From the NCBI GenBank assembly GCA_027491915.1, contig JAOZGC010000004.1:1-64000 (forward strand): a DNA stretch of 64,000 nucleotides. The letters are read 5' to 3'. Positions within the stretch are counted from its first letter, which is position 1. The number at the start of each line of letters is the position of its first letter. The translations under genes were made by a program, and so were the position numbers. The notes beneath the pieces were generated by a model. It was not told where the DNA came from, ran no database searches, and worked only from the letters and a program-made list of their open reading frames with translations. Below, piece by piece: positions 31,612 through 47,650 of this stretch. The DNA comes from Thermoproteota archaeon (GTDB lineage Archaea > Korarchaeota > Korarchaeia > Korarchaeales > Korarchaeaceae).

Positions 31612-33270
31612 ATGGCCCTAGCGACCATAGGCGGAAGACCTGTCCTGATCCTTAAGGAGGGGACGACCCGAACCAGGGGAGAGGAGGCCCGGCGGACGAA
31701 CATCATGGCTGCCCGGGCCATAGCCGATGCCGTCAGGACCACCCTCGGTCCCAAGGGCATGGACAAGATGATAGTGGACTCCCTGGGAGACATAACCGTC
31801 AGCAACGACGGGGCGACCATACTGCAGGAGATGGAGGTCGCCCACCCGGCCGCCAAGATAATGGTGAACCTGGCCAAGGCCCAGGACAAGGAGGTCGGCG
31901 ACGGAACCACGACCGCCGTGGTGCTGGCGGGTGAGCTCCTGGCCGAGGCCGAGAACCTACTCAACAAGAACATACACCCGACCATCATAATAGACGGCTA
32001 CGAGAAGGCCCTCAGGTTCGTCGAGGAGGAGCTGGACAAGCTGGCCGTCCCCGTCGATCCGAACGACGAGGACATGCTGAGGAGGGTGGCCGAGACCTCC
32101 ATGAGCAGCAAGCTCGTCAGGGGGGCGAGGGCCAAACTCGCCGAGGTGGCCGTCAAGGCGGTCAAGTCGGTGGCCGAGAGGCAGGGAGACCGGACGGTCG
32201 TCGACATAGACAACGTCAAGATAGTTAAGAAGAAGGGAGAGGGCCTGGCGGAGACCGAATTCATCCGGGGGGTGGTCCTCGATAAGGAGGTGGTCCACCG
32301 CGACATGCCGAAGACCGTCAGGGATGCAAAGATAGCCCTCCTGAACCTGTCCCTGGAGGTCAAGAAGCCGGAGATAGACGTGGAGGTTCAGATATCTACC
32401 CCCCAGGAGCTCAGGGCCTTCATAGACCAGGAGACCAAGATGCTACAGGAGAAGGTTGAGAAGATTGCCTCCACCGGCGCGAACGTCGTCTTCTGCCAGA
32501 AGGGGATAGACGAGGTGGCCCAGCACTTCCTGGCCAAGAAGGGCATACTGGCCGTCAGGAGGGTCAGCGAGAAGGACATGAGGAGGCTCGAGAGAGCCAC
32601 CGGCGGCCGCATCATAAACAACTTGGACGACCTCTCGCCGGAGCACCTCGGGAGCGCCGGCCTGGTGGAGGAGAGGAAGATAGGAGAGGACAGGATGGTC
32701 TTCGTCCAGGAATGCAAGGATCCCAAGGCCGTCTCCATACTGATAAGGGGAGGGGCCGACACGATCCTGGATGAGGCGGAGAGGGGGATCAAGGACGCGC
32801 TCTACGTGGTCAGGAACGTGGTGGAGGATCAGAAGGTGGTCTACGGCGGGGGAGCAATTCAGCTCGAGCTGGCTAGGAGGCTGAGGGACCACGCCGAGAG
32901 GTTCGGAGGCAAGGAGCAGCTCGCAATAGAGGCCTTCGCCAATGCCCTCGAGTCCATCCCCAGGACGCTGGCCGAGAACGCCGGGATGGATTCCGTCGAC
33001 GTGCTGGTCCAGCTCAGGAAGAAGCACGCCGAGGGGGCCACGGACTACGGGGTCGACCCGGTCGAGGGGAGGATAGCCTCCATGAAGGAGCTGGAGGTGA
33101 TCGACACCTTCAGGGGAGTGAAGAACTCGGTGTCCTCGGCCACCGAGACGGCGATCCTCATAATAAAGACCGACGACATAATAGCCGCCAAGCCGTACGA
33201 GAAGAAGGAGAAAAAGAAGGAGGAAGAAGAAGAGGAGGAGGGCAAGGAGGGCAGCAAGTTCGAGTTCTAA
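31612..33270 (+). CDS. thsA: Thermosome (group II chaperonin) subunit
   Basis: The 552-aa subunit has the class signatures RTTLGPKGMDKM (about 43-54), ISNDGAT-type VSNDGATIL, VGDGTTTAVVLAGELL with the catalytic aspartate, and a C-terminal tail of Lys/Glu repeats ending SKFEF. It folds proteins in an ATP-driven double ring and receives substrates from prefoldin. Only one subunit gene is in this window, so hetero-oligomers cannot be judged. A pyrimidine-rich, T-rich stretch follows the stop. Confidence 0.97.
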   Translation: MALATIGGRPVLILKEGTTRTRGEEARRTNIMAARAIADAVRTTLGPKGMDKMIVDSLGDITVSNDGATILQEMEVAHPAAKIMVNLAKAQDKEVGDGTTTAVVLAGELLAEAENLLNKNIHPTIIIDGYEKALRFVEEELDKLAVPVDPNDEDMLRRVAETSMSSKLVRGARAKLAEVAVKAVKSVAERQGDRTVVDIDNVKIVKKKGEGLAETEFIRGVVLDKEVVHRDMPKTVRDAKIALLNLSLEVKKPEIDVEVQISTPQELRAFIDQETKMLQEKVEKIASTGANVVFCQKGIDEVAQHFLAKKGILAVRRVSEKDMRRLERATGGRIINNLDDLSPEHLGSAGLVEERKIGEDRMVFVQECKDPKAVSILIRGGADTILDEAERGIKDALYVVRNVVEDQKVVYGGGAIQLELARRLRDHAERFGGKEQLAIEAFANALESIPRTLAENAGMDSVDVLVQLRKKHAEGATDYGVDPVEGRIASMKELEVIDTFRGVKNSVSSATETAILIIKTDDIIAAKPYEKKEKKKEEEEEEEGKEGSKFEF

Positions 33271-33405: not shown

Positions 33406-34785
33406 TCACTCCCCCCTTCTCTTTCTCTTCGTTGCCAGGATGCCTATCAGGGCCAGAGGATACATGGCGTACAGGTAGGGGTGAACGGGCCCCGATTCTA
33501 TCCAGACCATCATGGCGCTGGTCAGTATCCCGTTGAACGCGGCGAATATCCCCCTTCTATTCCTGGGCGTCGAGGAGGCGAGCCGGAACACCGCGCCCCC
33601 AATCAGCCCTATGGCCAGGGGTACCAGGACCACCCCTGCCGCGCCGAAGTCTATCCAGATCGGTCCTACCAGGGAGGTGGTGTAGGCCACTGGCCTGCCG
33701 ACGGCGGCCTCTCCCGTCAGCGGTCCGATCAGGGGCCTGGGGATCCCCATCATGGTGAGTATCGGATTGAGGAAGAGGAGCACCCCCCAGCTCCTCCCCG
33801 CGGGGCCGTAATCCTTCAGGACGAGCGTCAGGCAGTGGAGGGTGAACCCGGCCCGACTGACGGAGACGTACCAGGGGTCGCCAGCCAGCCCCATCTTCGC
33901 CATGAGTATCATCTTCTGCCCGACGAACAGCGCGGCCATGGGGAGGGCCAGCAGGACCACCACCGTCCTGGCCCTTATGGAACCCATCATCCACATCGTC
34001 AGCACCAAGGTGCCGAGGGCGACGAACACGTCCAACCTGAATCCGGATGGGAACGTGAGCGCCACCGTGCCGACGGCGAGAGCTGCCTGGAGGGCGATCT
34101 CCCCCCCTCTGTCCAGGGTCCCCTCCTCCCTGAGGGCGGCCGCGGCGGCCGAGATCGCTCCGACGCCGAGCACAAACGCCGAGTAGCTGAGGGACCATAT
34201 CTCGTCGTGTCTCCTCAGCTCCGGATACAGGAGGGGTATGCTTCCCCTGGAGAAGTAGCTGTAGGCCAGCCCGACGATCCCCATCGAGACCAGAGGGAGG
34301 GCGAAGTGGGTCAACCTCTTGGGCCCTGGCGGCCTTATCTCCCCCATCCTGCCGGCGACCCGCTCCCCGAGCAGGAGGCCCGCCACGTAGCTGGATATGC
34401 CGATGGTCCAAAGAAATAACCCCAGAACTTCCGTTTCCGGATAGAGCACGGGAAGTGGGCTTATCAGCGCGAGGACGACGTAAACCGCGAACAGGAGGGG
34501 GATCAACACGTGGGGCGACAGGAATCCCCTCCTCTCGACCGCCCACCTGAGCGGCCTCAGGATAAGGCTCTCCCTGAAGGCGGTCGCAGCGGGAGAGGTG
34601 ACGCGGGCGATCCTCTCCTCTACCTCCTCCAGGACGGAGGCCGCCCGCCCGCCCGGTGAGGCGACCCCCCCCAGCGCGCCGGCCGCCCCGAACAGGACGC
34701 CGGCCAGCCTCTCGCCCAGATACAATTCCACGTCTAGGATCGACCAGAGAACCCTGAGGAGCAAGCTGTCGTCCGCAAGGCCCAA
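33406..34785 (-). CDS. Multi-spanning membrane protein resembling oligosaccharide repeat-unit polymerase
   Basis: The 459-aa protein has about 11-12 hydrophobic segments from residue 95 on, a large N-terminal cytoplasmic region, a conserved-looking FPSGFRLDVFVALGTLVL, and a C-terminal TSLVGPIWIDFGAAGVVLVPLAIGL. That last motif (T..G...DFG..G) resembles Wzy/O-antigen polymerase families. It probably polymerises or transfers surface glycans, but no glycosyltransferase genes adjoin it. It is the last of three minus-strand genes in a compact string. Confidence 0.65.
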   Translation of the reverse strand: MGLADDSLLLRVLWSILDVELYLGERLAGVLFGAAGALGGVASPGGRAASVLEEVEERIARVTSPAATAFRESLILRPLRWAVERRGFLSPHVLIPLLFAVYVVLALISPLPVLYPETEVLGLFLWTIGISSYVAGLLLGERVAGRMGEIRPPGPKRLTHFALPLVSMGIVGLAYSYFSRGSIPLLYPELRRHDEIWSLSYSAFVLGVGAISAAAAALREEGTLDRGGEIALQAALAVGTVALTFPSGFRLDVFVALGTLVLTMWMMGSIRARTVVVLLALPMAALFVGQKMILMAKMGLAGDPWYVSVSRAGFTLHCLTLVLKDYGPAGRSWGVLLFLNPILTMMGIPRPLIGPLTGEAAVGRPVAYTTSLVGPIWIDFGAAGVVLVPLAIGLIGGAVFRLASSTPRNRRGIFAAFNGILTSAMMVWIESGPVHPYLYAMYPLALIGILATKRKRRGE

Positions 34786-34792
34786 TCGAGAC

Positions 34793-35653
34793 TCACCCCT
34801 CCTCCCCGAACGTCGTGGACACCCTCACGTACCTGACCCCCGGCATGGACCTGATGTCCCTCAGGATCTCCGCCTTGACGCCCATGGAGACCTCTCCCTC
34901 CATGACCACCTTGAAGTTCAGGTCGTACGCCAGGACCTGTCCCCTCCCCAGGAAGGATTCCAAGATGTGCGTCGCTCTGCCCACATCACCCAGCGGGACG
35001 TCCTGGAAGGACAGATAGAGAGGGTAGTCTACCGAGCCTGCGAACCGGATTAGACCCCCAGAAAAGCGGTTCAACACGGTCTCCAACCAGTACACCGGAA
35101 TCCGCCCCTCCCTTATTCCCTCCAGCATCGCCTCGTCGATCAGCTTGAAATTCACGTAGATCCGAGCCCTCGCACCCGCATCCCGGATGAACCCCAAGAT
35201 TCTCTCCCCAAGGGACTCGATCTCGGAGAGGTTTTCCAACCTCCTGGGGCCGACGTAGACCACCATCTTGTTCGCCGCCCTGGTCGCCCTGACCCTCACG
35301 TACAGGGGATCAAGCTCCAGCGGCACCGGTTCCTTCAGCTTCTGATCGTCGGAGTAGACCACCAGGCTCTCTCCGTCCCCCCCGAAGAGGACCGAGTACC
35401 GGTATGAGCGCACCACCATTCCCGTCACGTTGATCACGCTGCCGTTGCTCTCCATACCGTAGGCGCTGCCCTCGAGCGAGAATCCCCTGTCTCTGTAAAA
35501 CCTGGCCACGTAGGCCAGCGAAGTACCGGTTCCTATGTCGCCCTCGTAGAACGACTCGTAATCCGCCCTCATGACGGCGGACGCAGCCAAGAAGACTATA
35601 ATCGCCAGATCCAGCGAGACAGCGATCAGCCTGCCGAGCCTCAAGGAGATCAC
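34793..35653 (-). CDS. Membrane-anchored protein of unknown function (A)
   Basis: The 286-aa protein has one N-terminal hydrophobic anchor (about 9-27) and an otherwise soluble, mixed alpha/beta extracytoplasmic part with two N-x-S/T sequons (NGS, NVT, about 69-76). The C-terminal 60 residues (SFLGRGQVLAYDLNFKVVMEG...VRYVRVS) have a beta-alpha-beta pattern resembling the end of the neighbouring gene product, suggesting paralogy. No catalytic motif recognised. It is 7 nt upstream of the polymerase-like gene and 4 nt downstream of the next gene. Confidence 0.7.
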   Translation of the reverse strand: MISLRLGRLIAVSLDLAIIVFLAASAVMRADYESFYEGDIGTGTSLAYVARFYRDRGFSLEGSAYGMESNGSVINVTGMVVRSYRYSVLFGGDGESLVVYSDDQKLKEPVPLELDPLYVRVRATRAANKMVVYVGPRRLENLSEIESLGERILGFIRDAGARARIYVNFKLIDEAMLEGIREGRIPVYWLETVLNRFSGGLIRFAGSVDYPLYLSFQDVPLGDVGRATHILESFLGRGQVLAYDLNFKVVMEGEVSMGVKAEILRDIRSMPGVRYVRVSTTFGEEG

Positions 35654-35657
35654 CTCC

Positions 35658-36491
35658 TCAGCAGGATCGCCTCACCTCGATCAGCCTCATACCGTGCTCC
35701 AAGGCTAGCCTCTCGACGGCGTCCAAGTCCGCGTCGTGCCTGATCAGGACGAGCACCAGGCTGACGGAGAACCGGTGGTCGATCAGTCCGTACTCCCCCG
35801 ACACGATCTCCCGGACGGCGTCCTCAGCGCCGACCACGCTCCGAATTGGGCTGAACGTGTAGCTGACAACGGCCTCTCTCCCCGCCGTCCTCACCAGGAA
35901 GGCGCCCCTCCACCCGGCCAGCACGTCCGTCACGAGGCTCCCGGGTATGGCGCCCCTATCGGCGAGGAATCCGGAGTCGGCCAACACGAAGCACTCCAGG
36001 GCCCCCACCTCACGCAGGGCCGAGCACATCCTCGCGATCTCCCGAGCCTCAACCTCGCCCGTCGGGCTCTCCGGCCCCAGGGCCGCCAGATCGTAACCGT
36101 CCTCTCTCTTTGGATATATTTTGGTCCTTACTGGTATTCCATCTACAAATCTATAGGTAAAATCGTCGGATAGAATCACTGTATCATTTCGTATTGGGTC
36201 ATATAATATAAAATATTTGGAGGTCGCATATATCAACTTGCCCGAGAAGTTCCCGTACCCCCCCTCCCTCATGGCCGCCGTGACGGCGAGCCAGGCGTCG
36301 AAACCCCTCCTGGTGGTCCCAACGTAGGTGGCGTAGACCCCCCCGGCTTCGGCCCCCCTTATGTCGAAGTACCCGTCAGTTCCCCTCGGCGGGAAGCCGA
36401 GGACCAGGACGACCAGGGTCCCGGCCAGGGCCGCGTCTAGCGTCAGACCCGCCGTCCGGATCCGGACCAAAGGCTCACCGGACACCGGCAT
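35658..36491 (-). CDS. Membrane-anchored protein of unknown function (B), with AT-rich insert
   Basis: The 277-aa protein starts at ATG 36491 or the GTG two codons later. It has a single N-terminal anchor (about 17-32) and a C-terminal beta-alpha-beta end (FSVSLVLVLI...MRLIEVRR) like its neighbour. Codons for about residues 84-128 are markedly AT-rich (36121-36240: 40 G+C of 120), rich in ATA, TAT and AAA, unlike the rest of the gene. The frame stays open through it. Function unknown. Confidence 0.7.
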   Translation of the reverse strand: MPVSGEPLVRIRTAGLTLDAALAGTLVVLVLGFPPRGTDGYFDIRGAEAGGVYATYVGTTRRGFDAWLAVTAAMREGGYGNFSGKLIYATSKYFILYDPIRNDTVILSDDFTYRFVDGIPVRTKIYPKREDGYDLAALGPESPTGEVEAREIARMCSALREVGALECFVLADSGFLADRGAIPGSLVTDVLAGWRGAFLVRTAGREAVVSYTFSPIRSVVGAEDAVREIVSGEYGLIDHRFSVSLVLVLIRHDADLDAVERLALEHGMRLIEVRRSC

Positions 36492-36499
36492 TTCGCGGC

Positions 36500-36511
36500 G
36501 CAAATAAAAGT
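36500..36511. promoter_or_regulatory. TATA region for the polymer locus
   Basis: caaataaaag (36501-36510). Rightward it predicts a start near 36530, about 10 nt before ATG 36540. Leftward it predicts a start near 36480, so the minus-strand gene may begin at its internal GTG. Confidence 0.5.
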
Positions 36512-36539
36512 TGCAACTGGCCCGGGGGGAAGGTCCGGC

Positions 36540-37691
36540 ATGCTCGCCCTCCAGGGGGCTGCGAGGCGGCTCAGAGGGGGGTTCCTCCACCCCGTGTCCC
36601 TGCTGGCCCTCGGGTACCTCTCCATGGCGGCCGCAGCGCACCTAGAGGGCTTCGACCCGGGACCCGAGGCGGCGGCCTTCATGTTGGTCGGCGTGGGTTC
36701 TGCGGCCGCGGGATCGTGGTCGGCTAGGAGGTTCCCCTGGCTGGTCCCGCCGCTCGCCTCCCTATCATCGGCCGCGTACCTGCTCTCCCTCTTCTGGGGG
36801 ATCCTGGGTCCCGCCGCCGCGCTCCCGGCCGTCTCGATGGTGGCCGCGTTGTGGCTGATGCGGACGGCCCGCCCACCCGGGATTCGACTCGCGAGGCTGG
36901 TGTACCTGCTCGGGATCTCGCTGACGCTGGTAAATCCAATCCTCAACTTGACCTTCCTCGGCGGGCCACCAAGGTCGATCGAGCCGCCGCTCGAGGCGGC
37001 CGCCGGCCCGCTGCTCACCGCCCTCTCCTTCCCCTGGGTGCTGGCGGAGGTTCAAGCCAAGGATGGGAGGCGGGCCGGACTGATCCTCACAGCCCTGACC
37101 GCCGCGACCGCGTTGAGCACCGGTTTCAGGGCCGACGCCGTGGTTATCCTGCTAGAGGCGGCCCTGATCTGCGCCTCCAGAAACCGCCGCGGCGAGGCCG
37201 CGATGACGCTGGCGGCAGCCCTCCTCCTGTTCGTCGTGGTTGGGGTCCTCAGGGCCTCCTCCCATCCCGCGGCCGTCATGGCTTGGGATCCGGTCAGGAG
37301 GGCGGCCACCTCGATGGGATACTTCTACGAGCTGTCTTCTCTGTCCTGGCCCCTCGGGATATTTGAGGATCCACTGTTCCTCCTGAGGCAGTTTCGGCAC
37401 CCCTCCCAAGTGATAGGGAGGGGGATCCTCGGCAGGGGAACTGGCATAACGCCCACCGCCTTTGGGACCGACGTCGTGTCCTTCGGCCTGCCAGAGCTCA
37501 TCGTCGTCTGGTTCCTCTTGGGCTCCGCCCTGGAGGCGTTGGACGAGCGGCGGATCTCCGGGGATCCAAGGCCCCACTCGCTCGCCGCCTCCCTCATAAT
37601 AGTCTCTCTGGACGTCGGCCTGACGCAGGCGGTCCTGTTCGTCGTCCTGGCGGCCGCGGCCGCGGTCCGGGTCGGGGAAAGATCTTTATAG
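36540..37691 (+). CDS. Second multi-spanning polymerase-like membrane protein
   Basis: The 383-aa protein has 10-12 hydrophobic segments, a LSTGFRADAVVILLEAALI stretch comparable to SGFRLDVFVALGTLVL in the minus-strand polymerase-like protein, and a late TPTAFGTDVVSFGLPELIVVWFLLG segment comparable to its DFGAAG region. It therefore looks like a distant paralogue of the 33406-34785 product and like Wzy-type polymerases. Divergent from protein B. Function inferred only. Confidence 0.65.
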   Translation: MLALQGAARRLRGGFLHPVSLLALGYLSMAAAAHLEGFDPGPEAAAFMLVGVGSAAAGSWSARRFPWLVPPLASLSSAAYLLSLFWGILGPAAALPAVSMVAALWLMRTARPPGIRLARLVYLLGISLTLVNPILNLTFLGGPPRSIEPPLEAAAGPLLTALSFPWVLAEVQAKDGRRAGLILTALTAATALSTGFRADAVVILLEAALICASRNRRGEAAMTLAAALLLFVVVGVLRASSHPAAVMAWDPVRRAATSMGYFYELSSLSWPLGIFEDPLFLLRQFRHPSQVIGRGILGRGTGITPTAFGTDVVSFGLPELIVVWFLLGSALEALDERRISGDPRPHSLAASLIIVSLDVGLTQAVLFVVLAAAAAVRVGERSL

Positions 37692-37723: not shown

Positions 37724-38128
37724 CTGCCAAAGTACTATCACGGACCCATCGCCATCAGGGGGAGGACCCCGACCGGAAGGAGGCTCAAGCTGGCCAGGGG
37801 AAAGAGGAAGAGGGAATCAGGCCGCGACCCGGCGAACACCAGGATAGGAGACAGGCTGGTCTCCCGCATAAGGGTCATGGGAGGGGGAACAAAGCTCAGG
37901 CTCCTCTCGGACGACCTGGTTAACGTCGCCATACCCAGCACCGGCGAGACCAGGAGGGCCAGGATACTTGACCTGGTGGACAATCCGGCCAACAGGTACA
38001 TGACGAGGAGGAAGATCATAACCAAGGGGACCCTCTTGAAGACCGAGCTGGGCCTGGCCAGGGTTTCGTCCCGCCCCGGACAGGACGGGGTGTTGAACGC
38101 CGTCCTAGTGGAAGAGAGCTCTTCTTGA
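37724..38128 (+). CDS. rps8e: Small subunit ribosomal protein eS8, apparent CTG start
   Basis: The 134-aa protein matches eS8 throughout: RTPTGRRLKLARGKRKRESGRDP, RVMGGGTKLRLLSDDLVNV, NPANRYMTRRKIITKGTLLKTELG and the C-terminal SRPGQDGVLNAVLVE. No ATG, GTG or TTG occurs in frame before residue 52. The only candidate matching the family's N-terminus is CTG 37724, 3 nt after GGTGAG (37715-37720) and about 10 nt after the predicted transcript start. Its stop overlaps gar1 as TTGA. Confidence 0.92.
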   Translation: MPKYYHGPIAIRGRTPTGRRLKLARGKRKRESGRDPANTRIGDRLVSRIRVMGGGTKLRLLSDDLVNVAIPSTGETRRARILDLVDNPANRYMTRRKIITKGTLLKTELGLARVSSRPGQDGVLNAVLVEESSS

Positions 38129-38424
38129 CGGCGATTCCCTTGAAGCCGATGGGAATAGTGCTGAAAGTCACTAGATCCCGAAACTTTCTGGTTAGATCAA
38201 CCGGTCCAATTCGGGGAGACCCGAAGGACCTGCTCGTCGTGGACCGAGATCTCAGGGTGGTTGGAGTCGTCAGAGACGTCATAGGCCCCGTCTCGAGGCC
38301 CTACATACTGGTCAAGGTACTCCTGCCTCTGGAAGAGGCCGGATCCCTGGTGGGGGAGAAACTGTATCTCCCGTCCAGGAGGGAGATCTCCGAGATCCGG
38401 GCTCGAGGGTCTCCCAAGATTTAA
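38125..38424 (+). CDS. gar1: H/ACA RNP protein Gar1
   Basis: The 99-aa beta-barrel protein has the Gar1 pattern: PMGIVLKVTRSRNFLVRS, VVGVVRDVIGPVSRPYILVKV. It binds Cbf5 and aids substrate turnover in RNA-guided pseudouridylation. TTG start overlapping the eS8 stop. A T6 run follows 15 nt after its stop. Confidence 0.93.
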   Translation: MTAIPLKPMGIVLKVTRSRNFLVRSTGPIRGDPKDLLVVDRDLRVVGVVRDVIGPVSRPYILVKVLLPLEEAGSLVGEKLYLPSRREISEIRARGSPKI

Positions 38425-44514: not shown

Positions 44515-45855
44515 ATGTCCGGGATCTCAGCCCGCGCCGCGCTGCTGATCGCGCTGATCCCCCTGTCGGTTCTCACCGTCTCGTGCGAGGAATACGGTGC
44601 GAGGCTCAGCGTGCGCGCGGGCGATCCCGTGTGCTTCTCAGGCCTAAGCTGCGCCTTCACCGTCGAGTTCACCGACGAGAGCCCCGTCCCGGCGGACCTC
44701 AGCAGGATCACCCTGATCCTACCCTGGGGCGGCGAGTCCGTCCTGAGGGATCCTCCCCTAAGGGTCGAGCCGGGCCAGACCGCCAAGATCAACTTGACCT
44801 TCCTGATCCCCCCCAACGTCTCCCAGGGCTTCTACCCAGTCCAGGCTCAGGCGTCATACTCCCTGGCTGGCAGGAGCCTCTCCGTCAATTCTCCCAGATC
44901 GGTGTTCTTGGTCAGGGTCCCGACCGTGGAGCTGTCCCTGGACCTGGATCCCCCGGACGTGGTGGCGCCCGGCGCCGAGCTTCCCGTGGTAGTCCTGTAC
45001 TCTGTAGAATCCCCCTCGACCAGCGACTCCCCCCGCCTCACGGCGCTGCTCAACGGCTCCGCGGTCGAGGACGTGGACCTGCCCAACCTCACTGGAACCC
45101 ACGCCTTCGTGCTGAGGACTCCCGCCCGGGGGAGGAGGTTGATACTGAGCGTGAGGCTGTCGATCGGAGGGTACGGGGAGGAGAAGGTCTTCGCCATAAG
45201 GCTGGGCGCGGGTTTCGATTCGGCCAGGGCCTCATCGCTGATCTCGGCCGCTAGGTCTCTCTTCAAGCAGGCCTCCTCTCTCTACACGGGGGCGGGGGAG
45301 AGGGGGGTCGCCCTGCCGCCGGAGGTTGCAAACGAGGTGACCGTGGCGTCCGTGTGGCTGAGGGAGGCAGAGAGGGCCTTCAACGAGAGCAACGCCTCGG
45401 CCATAAACCTGAGCATAAGGTCCATGAACGCCTCGAGCGCCGCGATATCCAGGGTGCTATCCTCCCTCAGGGAGGACATCCTCCGCGCCGCATCCGAGGT
45501 AAACGGCACCCTCAAAAGGGTCTTAGAGCTCGGGGCCGACAGGTCAGACGTTTTGGAGGTGAGGGCTCTCTTGAGATCCGCCACCTCGATGGCGGACGTG
45601 TTGATTGAGGATCCCAACAAGGCCTTGGAGAGATACGACTCTGCCAGGAGCTTGATAGAGTCCGCCGAGGACTCAGCAAGCGAACTCCTGAGGGGGTTGG
45701 AGGAGGCCGCCGCGCTCTCCGCCATCCTCTCCTGGGCGGCCGCCGCGCTGTCCATGCTCTTGGTGCCCTACGGTGGGATAAGGATATATCGGCGGATCTC
45801 GCCGGGGGGGCCAGAGAATGTGCGGGATAATAGGGGTGACCCTGGCCGCGGGTGA
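44515..45855 (+). CDS. Secreted, C-terminally anchored surface protein of unknown function
   Basis: The 446-aa protein has a signal peptide (about 5-24), two or so Ig-like beta domains (about 28-230, with PGQTAKINLTFLIPP typical of such folds), then a long helical region (about 235-400) with many N-x-S/T sequons. A C-terminal transmembrane helix (about 402-424) and a short basic cytoplasmic tail follow. It may be an S-layer-associated or glycan-bearing stalk protein. Its 3' end overlaps glmS by 38 nt, which may link it to amino-sugar supply. Confidence 0.7.
   Translation: MSGISARAALLIALIPLSVLTVSCEEYGARLSVRAGDPVCFSGLSCAFTVEFTDESPVPADLSRITLILPWGGESVLRDPPLRVEPGQTAKINLTFLIPPNVSQGFYPVQAQASYSLAGRSLSVNSPRSVFLVRVPTVELSLDLDPPDVVAPGAELPVVVLYSVESPSTSDSPRLTALLNGSAVEDVDLPNLTGTHAFVLRTPARGRRLILSVRLSIGGYGEEKVFAIRLGAGFDSARASSLISAARSLFKQASSLYTGAGERGVALPPEVANEVTVASVWLREAERAFNESNASAINLSIRSMNASSAAISRVLSSLREDILRAASEVNGTLKRVLELGADRSDVLEVRALLRSATSMADVLIEDPNKALERYDSARSLIESAEDSASELLRGLEEAAALSAILSWAAAALSMLLVPYGGIRIYRRISPGGPENVRDNRGDPGRG
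45782..45791 (+). promoter_or_regulatory. TATA box for glmS
   Basis: ggatatatcg lies 27-36 nt upstream of the glmS ATG, inside the upstream coding region, predicting an almost leaderless glmS mRNA. Confidence 0.5.
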
Positions 45856-47650
45856 CGCGATACGCCTCCTACTCGGAGGCCTGAAGAGGTTGGAATACAG
45901 GGGATACGACTCGGCGGGCATAGCCGTGGTGGGGAAATCCGGGCTCAGCGTGATCAAGGAGGTGGGCCCCGTCTCGGACCTGATAAGGAAGGTCTCCTCC
46001 TCACCGATCTCCGGGAGGACCGGGGTTGGCCACACAAGGTGGGCCACCCACGGCGGCGTCTCCGTCACCAACGCCCACCCCCACGTGGACTGCTCCGGTA
46101 ACCTGGCTGTCGTCCACAACGGGATAATAGAGAACTACTCCGAGCTCAGGGAGGTCCTGATCTCCAGGGGGCACACCTTCAGATCGGAGACCGACACCGA
46201 GGTGGTCGCCCACATGATCGAGGAGGAGCTCTCTGCCGGAAATCCCCCGCCGGAGGCCGTGGCTAAGGTGGCCTCCCAGCTCCTCGGGACGTTCGCGCTC
46301 GCCGTGGTGATGGCCGGATCGGACTCCATTCTCCTGGCCCGCCGCGGCAGCCCCCTGGTCATAGGGGTGGGGGATGGGGAGATGTACTGCGCGTCGGACA
46401 TAGCAGCCTTCATCGACAGGACCAGGAGGATAATCACCATGGGAGACGATGAGGTCGCCGAGATAAGTCCCGGGGGGGTGAGGATGTGGGACGTCTCGGG
46501 CGGCGAGATGAGGGAGGTGTCCAGGAGCCCCCAGGTCGTTGAGTGGGCCGCGACCGAGGTGTCGAAGGGTTCCCTCCCACACTTCATGCTGAAGGAGATA
46601 TACGAGCAGCCCGAGTCGGTCGGTAGGGCCGTAGATCAGGCCCTCACGTACTCGGATAGGGCCGTAGATGAGATACTGAGGGCGGTCGAGGGTGGCCGCA
46701 GGATATACTTCGCCGCCGCCGGGACCTCTTATCACTCCTCCCTGGTGGGGAAGTTCCTCTTCTCCTCCCTGGCCCGGGTTCCCTCAGAGTCGGTCATAGC
46801 CTCGGAATTCAAAGAGTGGGCCCTGCCCTCCCTGTCGGAGGGGGACGTCGTCTTCGCCATAAGCCAGTCTGGCGAGACGGCCGACGTGTTGACCGCGGTG
46901 AGGGCCGCGAAGAGGTCCGGGGCGAGGGTCATCTCGCTGGTGAACGTCCCCGCCTCGACCCTGACCAGGGAGTCGCACGAGGTCCTGTACACGGCCGCCG
47001 GGCCGGAGGTTGGGGTGGCCGCGACCAAGACCTACACGGCCCAGGTTGCCGTCCTCTCGGTTCTGGCCTCCAAGCTGGCGGTGAGCCTGGGCAGAGAGGT
47101 CGGCAGGGCGAGATCCCTCCTGAGGGCCGTGAGGGAGGTACCCGATGTGATCAGGAGGCAGATCGGCTCGTGGGACGAGGAGGCCTCCGCGGCGAGCGGG
47201 AAGTTGAAGGGTGCGAGGAGCGTCTACTTCCTGGGGAGGGGGATCAACGTGGCGACCTCGCTGGAGGGGGCCCTCAAGCTCAAGGAGATAAGCTACATAC
47301 ACGCCGAGGGGTTCCCCGGCGGCGAGTACAAGCACGGCCCCCTGGCGCTGATATCCGAGGGCGTGCCCGCCGTGGCCGTGATCCCCGTCGACGAGGGGCT
47401 CAGGAGGCTCATGGTCAGCAACGTGATGGAGGTCAAGGCCAGGGGCGCCCTGGTGATATCCGTCGGTCCGGGGGGCGCGGGGGATCCCTCCGACCTGCGC
47501 ATCCGGGTCGACCTGGGCGGACTCCCGGAGGAGGCGACCCCCATCGTGTACGCCGTCCCGCTCCAGCTCCTCGCATACAGGACGGCCGTCCTCCTCGGGA
47601 GGAACCCAGACAGGCCGAGGAACCTGGCCAAGAGCGTCACCGTGATATGA
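45818..47650 (+). CDS. glmS: Glutamine-fructose-6-phosphate aminotransferase (isomerizing)
   Basis: The 610-aa enzyme has the N-terminal glutaminase domain beginning MCGIIGV (catalytic Cys2), with RLEYRGYDSAGIA, HTRWATHG and HPHVDCSG. Two SIS domains follow, with AISQSGETADVL and the C-terminal HAEGFPGGEYKHGPLALI and KSVTVI. It makes glucosamine-6-phosphate, the entry to UDP-GlcNAc and surface glycans. Full length. Confidence 0.97.
   Translation: MCGIIGVTLAAGDAIRLLLGGLKRLEYRGYDSAGIAVVGKSGLSVIKEVGPVSDLIRKVSSSPISGRTGVGHTRWATHGGVSVTNAHPHVDCSGNLAVVHNGIIENYSELREVLISRGHTFRSETDTEVVAHMIEEELSAGNPPPEAVAKVASQLLGTFALAVVMAGSDSILLARRGSPLVIGVGDGEMYCASDIAAFIDRTRRIITMGDDEVAEISPGGVRMWDVSGGEMREVSRSPQVVEWAATEVSKGSLPHFMLKEIYEQPESVGRAVDQALTYSDRAVDEILRAVEGGRRIYFAAAGTSYHSSLVGKFLFSSLARVPSESVIASEFKEWALPSLSEGDVVFAISQSGETADVLTAVRAAKRSGARVISLVNVPASTLTRESHEVLYTAAGPEVGVAATKTYTAQVAVLSVLASKLAVSLGREVGRARSLLRAVREVPDVIRRQIGSWDEEASAASGKLKGARSVYFLGRGINVATSLEGALKLKEISYIHAEGFPGGEYKHGPLALISEGVPAVAVIPVDEGLRRLMVSNVMEVKARGALVISVGPGGAGDPSDLRIRVDLGGLPEEATPIVYAVPLQLLAYRTAVLLGRNPDRPRNLAKSVTVI

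Follow-up and report, generated by a model that had tools for sequence, protein, structure and literature searches.

The stretch of DNA considered here (the window) comprises positions 1 to 64,000 of contig JAOZGC010000004.1 (GCA_027491915.1), from a Korarchaeote with a genome of 1.12 Mb. Between the genes for the thermosome and ribosomal protein S8e it carries a set of four genes, A to D, that we think is probably an archaeal Wzy-type glycan-assembly module, in which protein A would polymerize lipid-linked oligosaccharides outside the cell together with a membrane-anchored accessory subunit. The first-pass annotation of this DNA called the locus uncharacterized, but the set was described in 2015, when Makarova, Galperin and Koonin reported paralogs of arCOG03206 (COG1822, PF01901) in an operon with arCOG03414, listed Korarchaeum among the organisms concerned, pointed to similarity, by HHpred, with Wzy and with the sugar-binding domain of TrmB, and predicted a role in lipopolysaccharide synthesis or glycosylation (PMC5898192). 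Because of that analysis, the core of our finding is already known as a prediction; its independent agreement on a glycosylation role counts in favor of the interpretation given here. In the literature searched, no other paper names these arCOGs or locus names. What is new is the wider range of the gene set, the ancient split between A and D with co-evolution of the partner and A, and a lineage in which the partner is duplicated and without sugar contacts and D is divergent. Our comparisons cover 247 archaeal genomes, the 29 of Korarchaeota among them, partner matches being accepted at E ≤ 1e-4.

All four open reading frames are real genes, and third-position GC (0.78-0.85 in A to D) matches that of the neighboring thermosome and PGK genes. 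Gene A (33406-34785, − strand; 459 amino acids, TTG start as called) is preceded at 7 bp by gene B (34793-35653, −; 286 amino acids, GTG start), and B at 4 bp by gene C (35658-36491, −); C-B-A is a single co-directed operon. A longer GTG-initiated frame at gene C overlaps D, and C is therefore taken from its ATG at 36491, which gives 277 amino acids. Gene D (36540-37691, +; 383 amino acids) stands apart on the opposite strand, separated from C by a divergent intergenic region of 48 bp (36492-36539) whose C-proximal part holds the A/T-rich stretch CTTTTATT. The four genes and their divergence around 36.5 kb had been recognized in the first-pass annotation, as had the resemblance of the two multi-spanning proteins to Wzy-type polymerases, and both points hold.

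A and D each exceed the curated cut-off (24.2 bits) of PF01901 (O_anti_polymase, "Putative O-antigen polymerase"), A with 96.9 bits (2e-27) and D with 44.3 bits (1.9e-11). The likeness previously seen between their SGFR-D and FG--G segments is real, as these matches and a set of shared near-invariant positions indicate: R250, R311, T369, G381, and G432 of A are equivalent to R197, R254, T304, G316, and G360 of D. The kinship is visible by profiles alone, plain BLASTP of A against D having found nothing (E 0.22). Against the NCBIfam model for oligosaccharide repeat unit polymerases (TIGR04370, cut-off 40 bits), A scores 22.1 bits and D has no match; a relative of A in genome G050 passes with 49.8 bits. 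From the alignment and its column tables, the conserved core of A runs from P184 to G432 (33490-34236, −) and includes R250 (in the GFR motif), R311, T369, D379-x-G381, and E430-x-G432. Four positions (R311, T369, G381, and G432) never vary across 51 A and D proteins, and five more (P184, R250, D379, G393, and E430) are close to invariant (A numbering); of the family's polar residues, A retains all except weakly conserved positions. The AlphaFold2 model of A is all-helical (predicted local distance difference test, pLDDT, 89.7; predicted template modeling score 0.91).

A tree separates A-type from D-type polymerases (support 90/78), with window A in the former clade and window D, on a long branch, in a D-type Korarchaeal clade. 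The A/D paralogy is an ancient split. We considered whether A, B, and C of the window lineage had been transferred or replaced, as both trees put them outside other Korarchaea; since the approximately unbiased test does not reject Korarchaeal monophyly of A (p 0.066) and synteny is conserved, it is more likely that they diverged where they stand and acquired long branches. In another Korarchaeal genus, g2, the second PF01901 gene has gone from the locus and lies beside an ABC (ATP-binding cassette)-transporter operon (L081 9794-11110; L082 9663-10748). These relocated genes cluster with Thermococcaceae-like D proteins, possibly through transfer or as a long-branch artifact.

An alternative to which we assign a lower probability is that A, D, or both are glycan ligases or oligosaccharyltransferases resembling WaaL or PglL, which would transfer the completed glycan off its lipid carrier onto a protein or lipid acceptor while the partner recognized that acceptor or the glycan. 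Wzy and WaaL follow one another in acting on a shared carrier (PMC12004945), adjacent ancient paralogs could divide polymerization and ligation between them, and the annotation as an O-antigen polymerase is one of homology only. The curated models matched, however, are polymerase and not ligase models, and an oligosaccharyltransferase, STT3, is already encoded in this genome (C2:4143-4775).

Proteins B and C match no family in Pfam or NCBIfam, and NCBIfam offers no name for their family even when the relatives are scanned. The similarity between their C-terminal ends, remarked on in the first-pass annotation, belongs to a likeness that covers the proteins in full (hhalign, 240 columns, E 5e-7). 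Iterative hidden Markov model searches unite B, C, and a 294-amino-acid protein that is the only partner at the corresponding locus of genome G008 (a single partner) in one family; a control profile built from 39 single partners alone recovers the C and B proteins of g2 (2e-7 and 1e-4, respectively) and none of 240 shuffled sequences. When the B sequence was used by itself, it found relatives in six of the 29 Korarchaeota, always beside C and A, and nothing in a wider scan of genome contigs, a null result that we ascribe to the divergence of B. The B-type and C-type proteins each form a clade, and the two clades are sisters (100/98). The partner was therefore duplicated once, in the ancestor of three genera (the window genus, g2, and g4), and by the trees this duplication is far younger than the split of A and D.

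B and C each have one N-terminal transmembrane segment. In the AlphaFold2 model of B (pLDDT 87.3) this helix (residues 2-31; 35561-35650, −), which hydropathy also marks, is followed by a TrmB-like β-barrel (residues 59-139; 35237-35479, −) and a C-terminal α/β region of two tandem ferredoxin-like folds (residues 143-279; 34817-35227, −). Foldseek pairs the barrel with TrmB (3qph, prob 0.98; 2f5t, prob 0.93) and the C-terminal region with a designed ferredoxin-in-ferredoxin protein (5cw9, E 2.9e-4). TrmB is also the top sequence match of the partner family in the PDB (2f5t, 7.5e-4; 3qph, 1.9e-3), and nine of the ten single partners scanned exceed the curated cut-off of the TrmB family PF11495. 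The partner family is thus homologous to the TrmB sugar-binding domain; for B of the window the modeled structure is what suggests the relationship. The alignment pairs vGgpmayvEd of the partners with VGGMFAVIED of TrmB, which contacts its sugar through Asn305, Gly320, Met321, Val324, Ile325, and Glu326 (PMC4158304), so that the second G of the motif and its E correspond to Gly320 and Glu326. Equivalents of these two residues are present in 36/39 and 34/39 single partners, respectively, and in 0/12 proteins of the B and C types: in the window lineage the residues predicted to contact sugar are gone from both duplicates. A second, independent partner duplication occurs in genome G212 (L151 3-4001, −), where the order is partner-polymerase-polymerase-partner-polymerase and one partner copy is likewise without the GG..E motif.

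The partner and its polymerase occur together across a broad range of archaea, and the co-occurrence of the gene set that the first-pass annotation proposed as a check was found in the Korarchaeota and beyond. PF01901 is present in all 29 Korarchaeota, mostly as two adjacent copies, and so is the partner, which the alignment search found in 30 other genomes as well; PF01901 is encoded by 59/59 genomes with a confident partner and by 84/247 overall. A wider profile revealed the partner beside a polymerase in further genomes missed earlier, including Thermococcaceae-like and Methanobacteria-like ones, and a scan of genome contigs with the A sequence returned ten loci, all Korarchaeal-like. In 28 of 29 Korarchaeota the partner lies upstream of A at a distance of no more than 100 bp (the 29th is cut off by a contig edge), as it does in 35 further genomes, which represent 14 families; the exceptions are a 1056-bp gap in G049, a contig edge in G039, and one of two G235 copies, which stands alone. 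The thermosome and S8e flanks are kept in most Korarchaeota examined; G008, for example, has partner-A-D between them, the order, on one strand, of the relatives. The g2 genomes keep C-B-A. Several Methanobacteria-like loci (L188, L190, L192, L193, L196, and L197) carry a PF01901 gene that lacks a partner, beside a gene that by eye is CobB/CbiA-like, and a number of them also encode a weakly UDP-GlcNAc-2-epimerase-like protein; a link to cell-wall polymer synthesis is possible.

The partner co-evolves with A and not with D. In a mirror-tree comparison of 19 genomes, which share descent and in whose figures rate effects remain, partner distances correlate with those of A at r 0.89 (partial 0.79 given D) and with those of D at r 0.69 (partial 0.25). 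We think it improbable that the anchored proteins work apart from the polymerase, as sensors of sugars at the surface or as carbohydrate-binding proteins, and share its operon for regulation. The TrmB homology and the conservation of Gly320 and Glu326 in single partners would suit such a role, but against it speak the co-evolution with A, the strict pairing of the two in 14 families outside the Korarchaeota, and the copies of the window lineage, which lost the contacts yet stayed next to A. We give almost no credence to the two polymerase-plus-partner modules (C with D, B with A) of the first-pass annotation: the divergent arrangement at 36.5 kb, the presence of two partners and two polymerases, and the gene order of G212 suggest them, but C runs in the same direction as B and A and almost abuts B, g2 retains this operon with no D at the locus, D is accompanied by a single partner in most relatives, partner divergence follows A, and C is B's sister from one lineage-specific duplication.

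The proposed module can be set beside three known systems. With the operon described in 2015 the locus shares two PF01901 paralogs, a secreted or anchored TrmB-like protein, its occurrence in Korarchaeum, and the predicted link to glycosylation; it differs in that arCOG03414 is duplicated and the copies are without sugar contacts, that D is inverted and transcribed divergently, and that neither a PMT nor an STT3 gene is adjacent. With bacterial Wzy and Wzz it shares a polytopic polymerase and a dedicated, anchored extracytoplasmic partner, and by analogy the two may work alike. Wzz, however, is a polysaccharide co-polymerase with a transmembrane segment at each end and a coiled coil, whereas the partner has one N-terminal segment, a TrmB-type barrel, and ferredoxin-like folds. 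The TrmB sugar-binding domain (PF11495; 2F5T, 3QPH) has a homologous barrel, and most single partners carry its GG-x-x-A-x-x-E-D motif; unlike TrmB, the partner has no DNA-binding domain, is membrane-anchored, and is predicted to be extracellular, and B and C are without the motif. A fourth resemblance, to DUF4330 (PF14221), is confined to the N-terminal anchor of several single partners and falls below the cut-off (best 23.1 versus 27.6 bits); the rest of these proteins is unmatched, as are B and C.

Several observations weigh against the module we propose. The literature searched contains no experiment on the arCOG03206/arCOG03414 set and no activity for any member. A structure search with the model of A returned no significant solved relative in the PDB; the closest glycosyltransferase was FtsW (8p1u), of the SEDS family, at a weak E 0.068 (prob 0.85), and a sequence-level search gave no polymerase either. 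Wzy, too, is counted among the SEDS proteins by a review from 2025 (PMC12004945). Window D has S314 in place of a near-invariant Asp kept in 49/51 aligned polymerases. The link of B and C to single partners is carried by g2 intermediates, identical gene position agreeing with it, while direct hhalign of C to single partners is weak (prob 2.3, E 0.02); single partners were also included in the alignment behind the model of B. No sequence relation between the partner and Wzz was seen, and since B and C are without sugar contacts, a sugar-sensing role is not transferable to this genome. To these we add the shared descent and rate effects in the mirror-tree comparison, and the absence of glycosyltransferase, flippase, and nucleotide-sugar genes next to the locus in the window, a point made in the first-pass annotation and borne out by the neighbors (GAPDH, PGK, nucleoside phosphorylase, thermosome, S8e, Gar1, Trm1, NTPase, fibrillarin, and Nop5). 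We regard this last as no argument against a glycan role, because GT4 glycosyltransferases or PMT-type enzymes lie in or beside the gene set in other archaea and because the STT3 enzyme and a MOP-type flippase (C4:284691-285500) are encoded elsewhere in this genome.

We envisage that a repeat oligosaccharide would be built on a polyprenol or dolichol carrier inside the cell and then flipped outward, and that A would join the units on the external side of the membrane; the transfer would probably go through its conserved arginines and the D-x-G and E-x-G loops. Our data show the homology, gene order, paralogy, co-evolution, and loss of contact residues; from these we infer enzyme activity, outward topology, physical contact between subunits, and a glycan substrate. 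B and C would be dedicated accessory subunits of A, each holding its barrel and two ferredoxin-like folds outside the cell on one membrane helix. In most archaea, a single partner with sugar contacts could hold the glycan by its chain or end and, by analogy with Wzz of bacteria, could steer polymerization or chain length. Because both copies have lost these contacts, B and C are more likely structural or docking subunits, perhaps of a heteromer. D, the ancient second paralog, is possibly a ligase, or a polymerase for another linkage.

Other features of the neighborhood deserve brief mention. The flanking thermosome gene (Cpn60_TCP1; 31612-33270, +; Pfam 6.6e-188) and S8e gene (37724-38128, +; PF01201) are conserved neighbors by synteny. 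S8e apparently starts with CTG: its LPKYYHGPIAI... is homologous to MPYYYHGPV..., no ATG, GTG, or TTG is found there, and the mechanically called frame begins 51 codons too late. Other Korarchaeota have SRP19 between S8e and Gar1; here that position (38120-38424) lacks it, and a PF01922 search found no SRP19 in genomes G000 (the genome of the window), G006, and G007; it may have been lost or be too diverged to detect. About 8 kb from the locus, a gene (45818-47650, +) that by eye encodes a GlmS-like amidotransferase (MCGIIGV...) lies within the same syntenic block in Korarchaeum and is possibly an amino-sugar supply gene.

Little is known of how archaea build long or repeating glycans on their surface, and in the literature searched there is no experimentally characterized archaeal Wzy-type polymerase or co-polymerase. 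We speculate, tentatively, that archaea use a class of co-polymerase unrelated to those known, an outward, membrane-tethered sugar-binding barrel of the TrmB type with tandem ferredoxin folds that controls a Wzy-like polymerase, and that one lineage of Korarchaeota turned it into the two-subunit, sugar-blind B and C, which co-diverged with the polymerase. The gene pair is widespread, is present in cultivable methanococci and Thermococcales, and is strictly paired and co-evolving, and its role is therefore directly testable. The Korarchaeal variant, with its duplicated, sugar-blind partner, provides a natural test of whether the polymerase depends on sugar binding by its partner.

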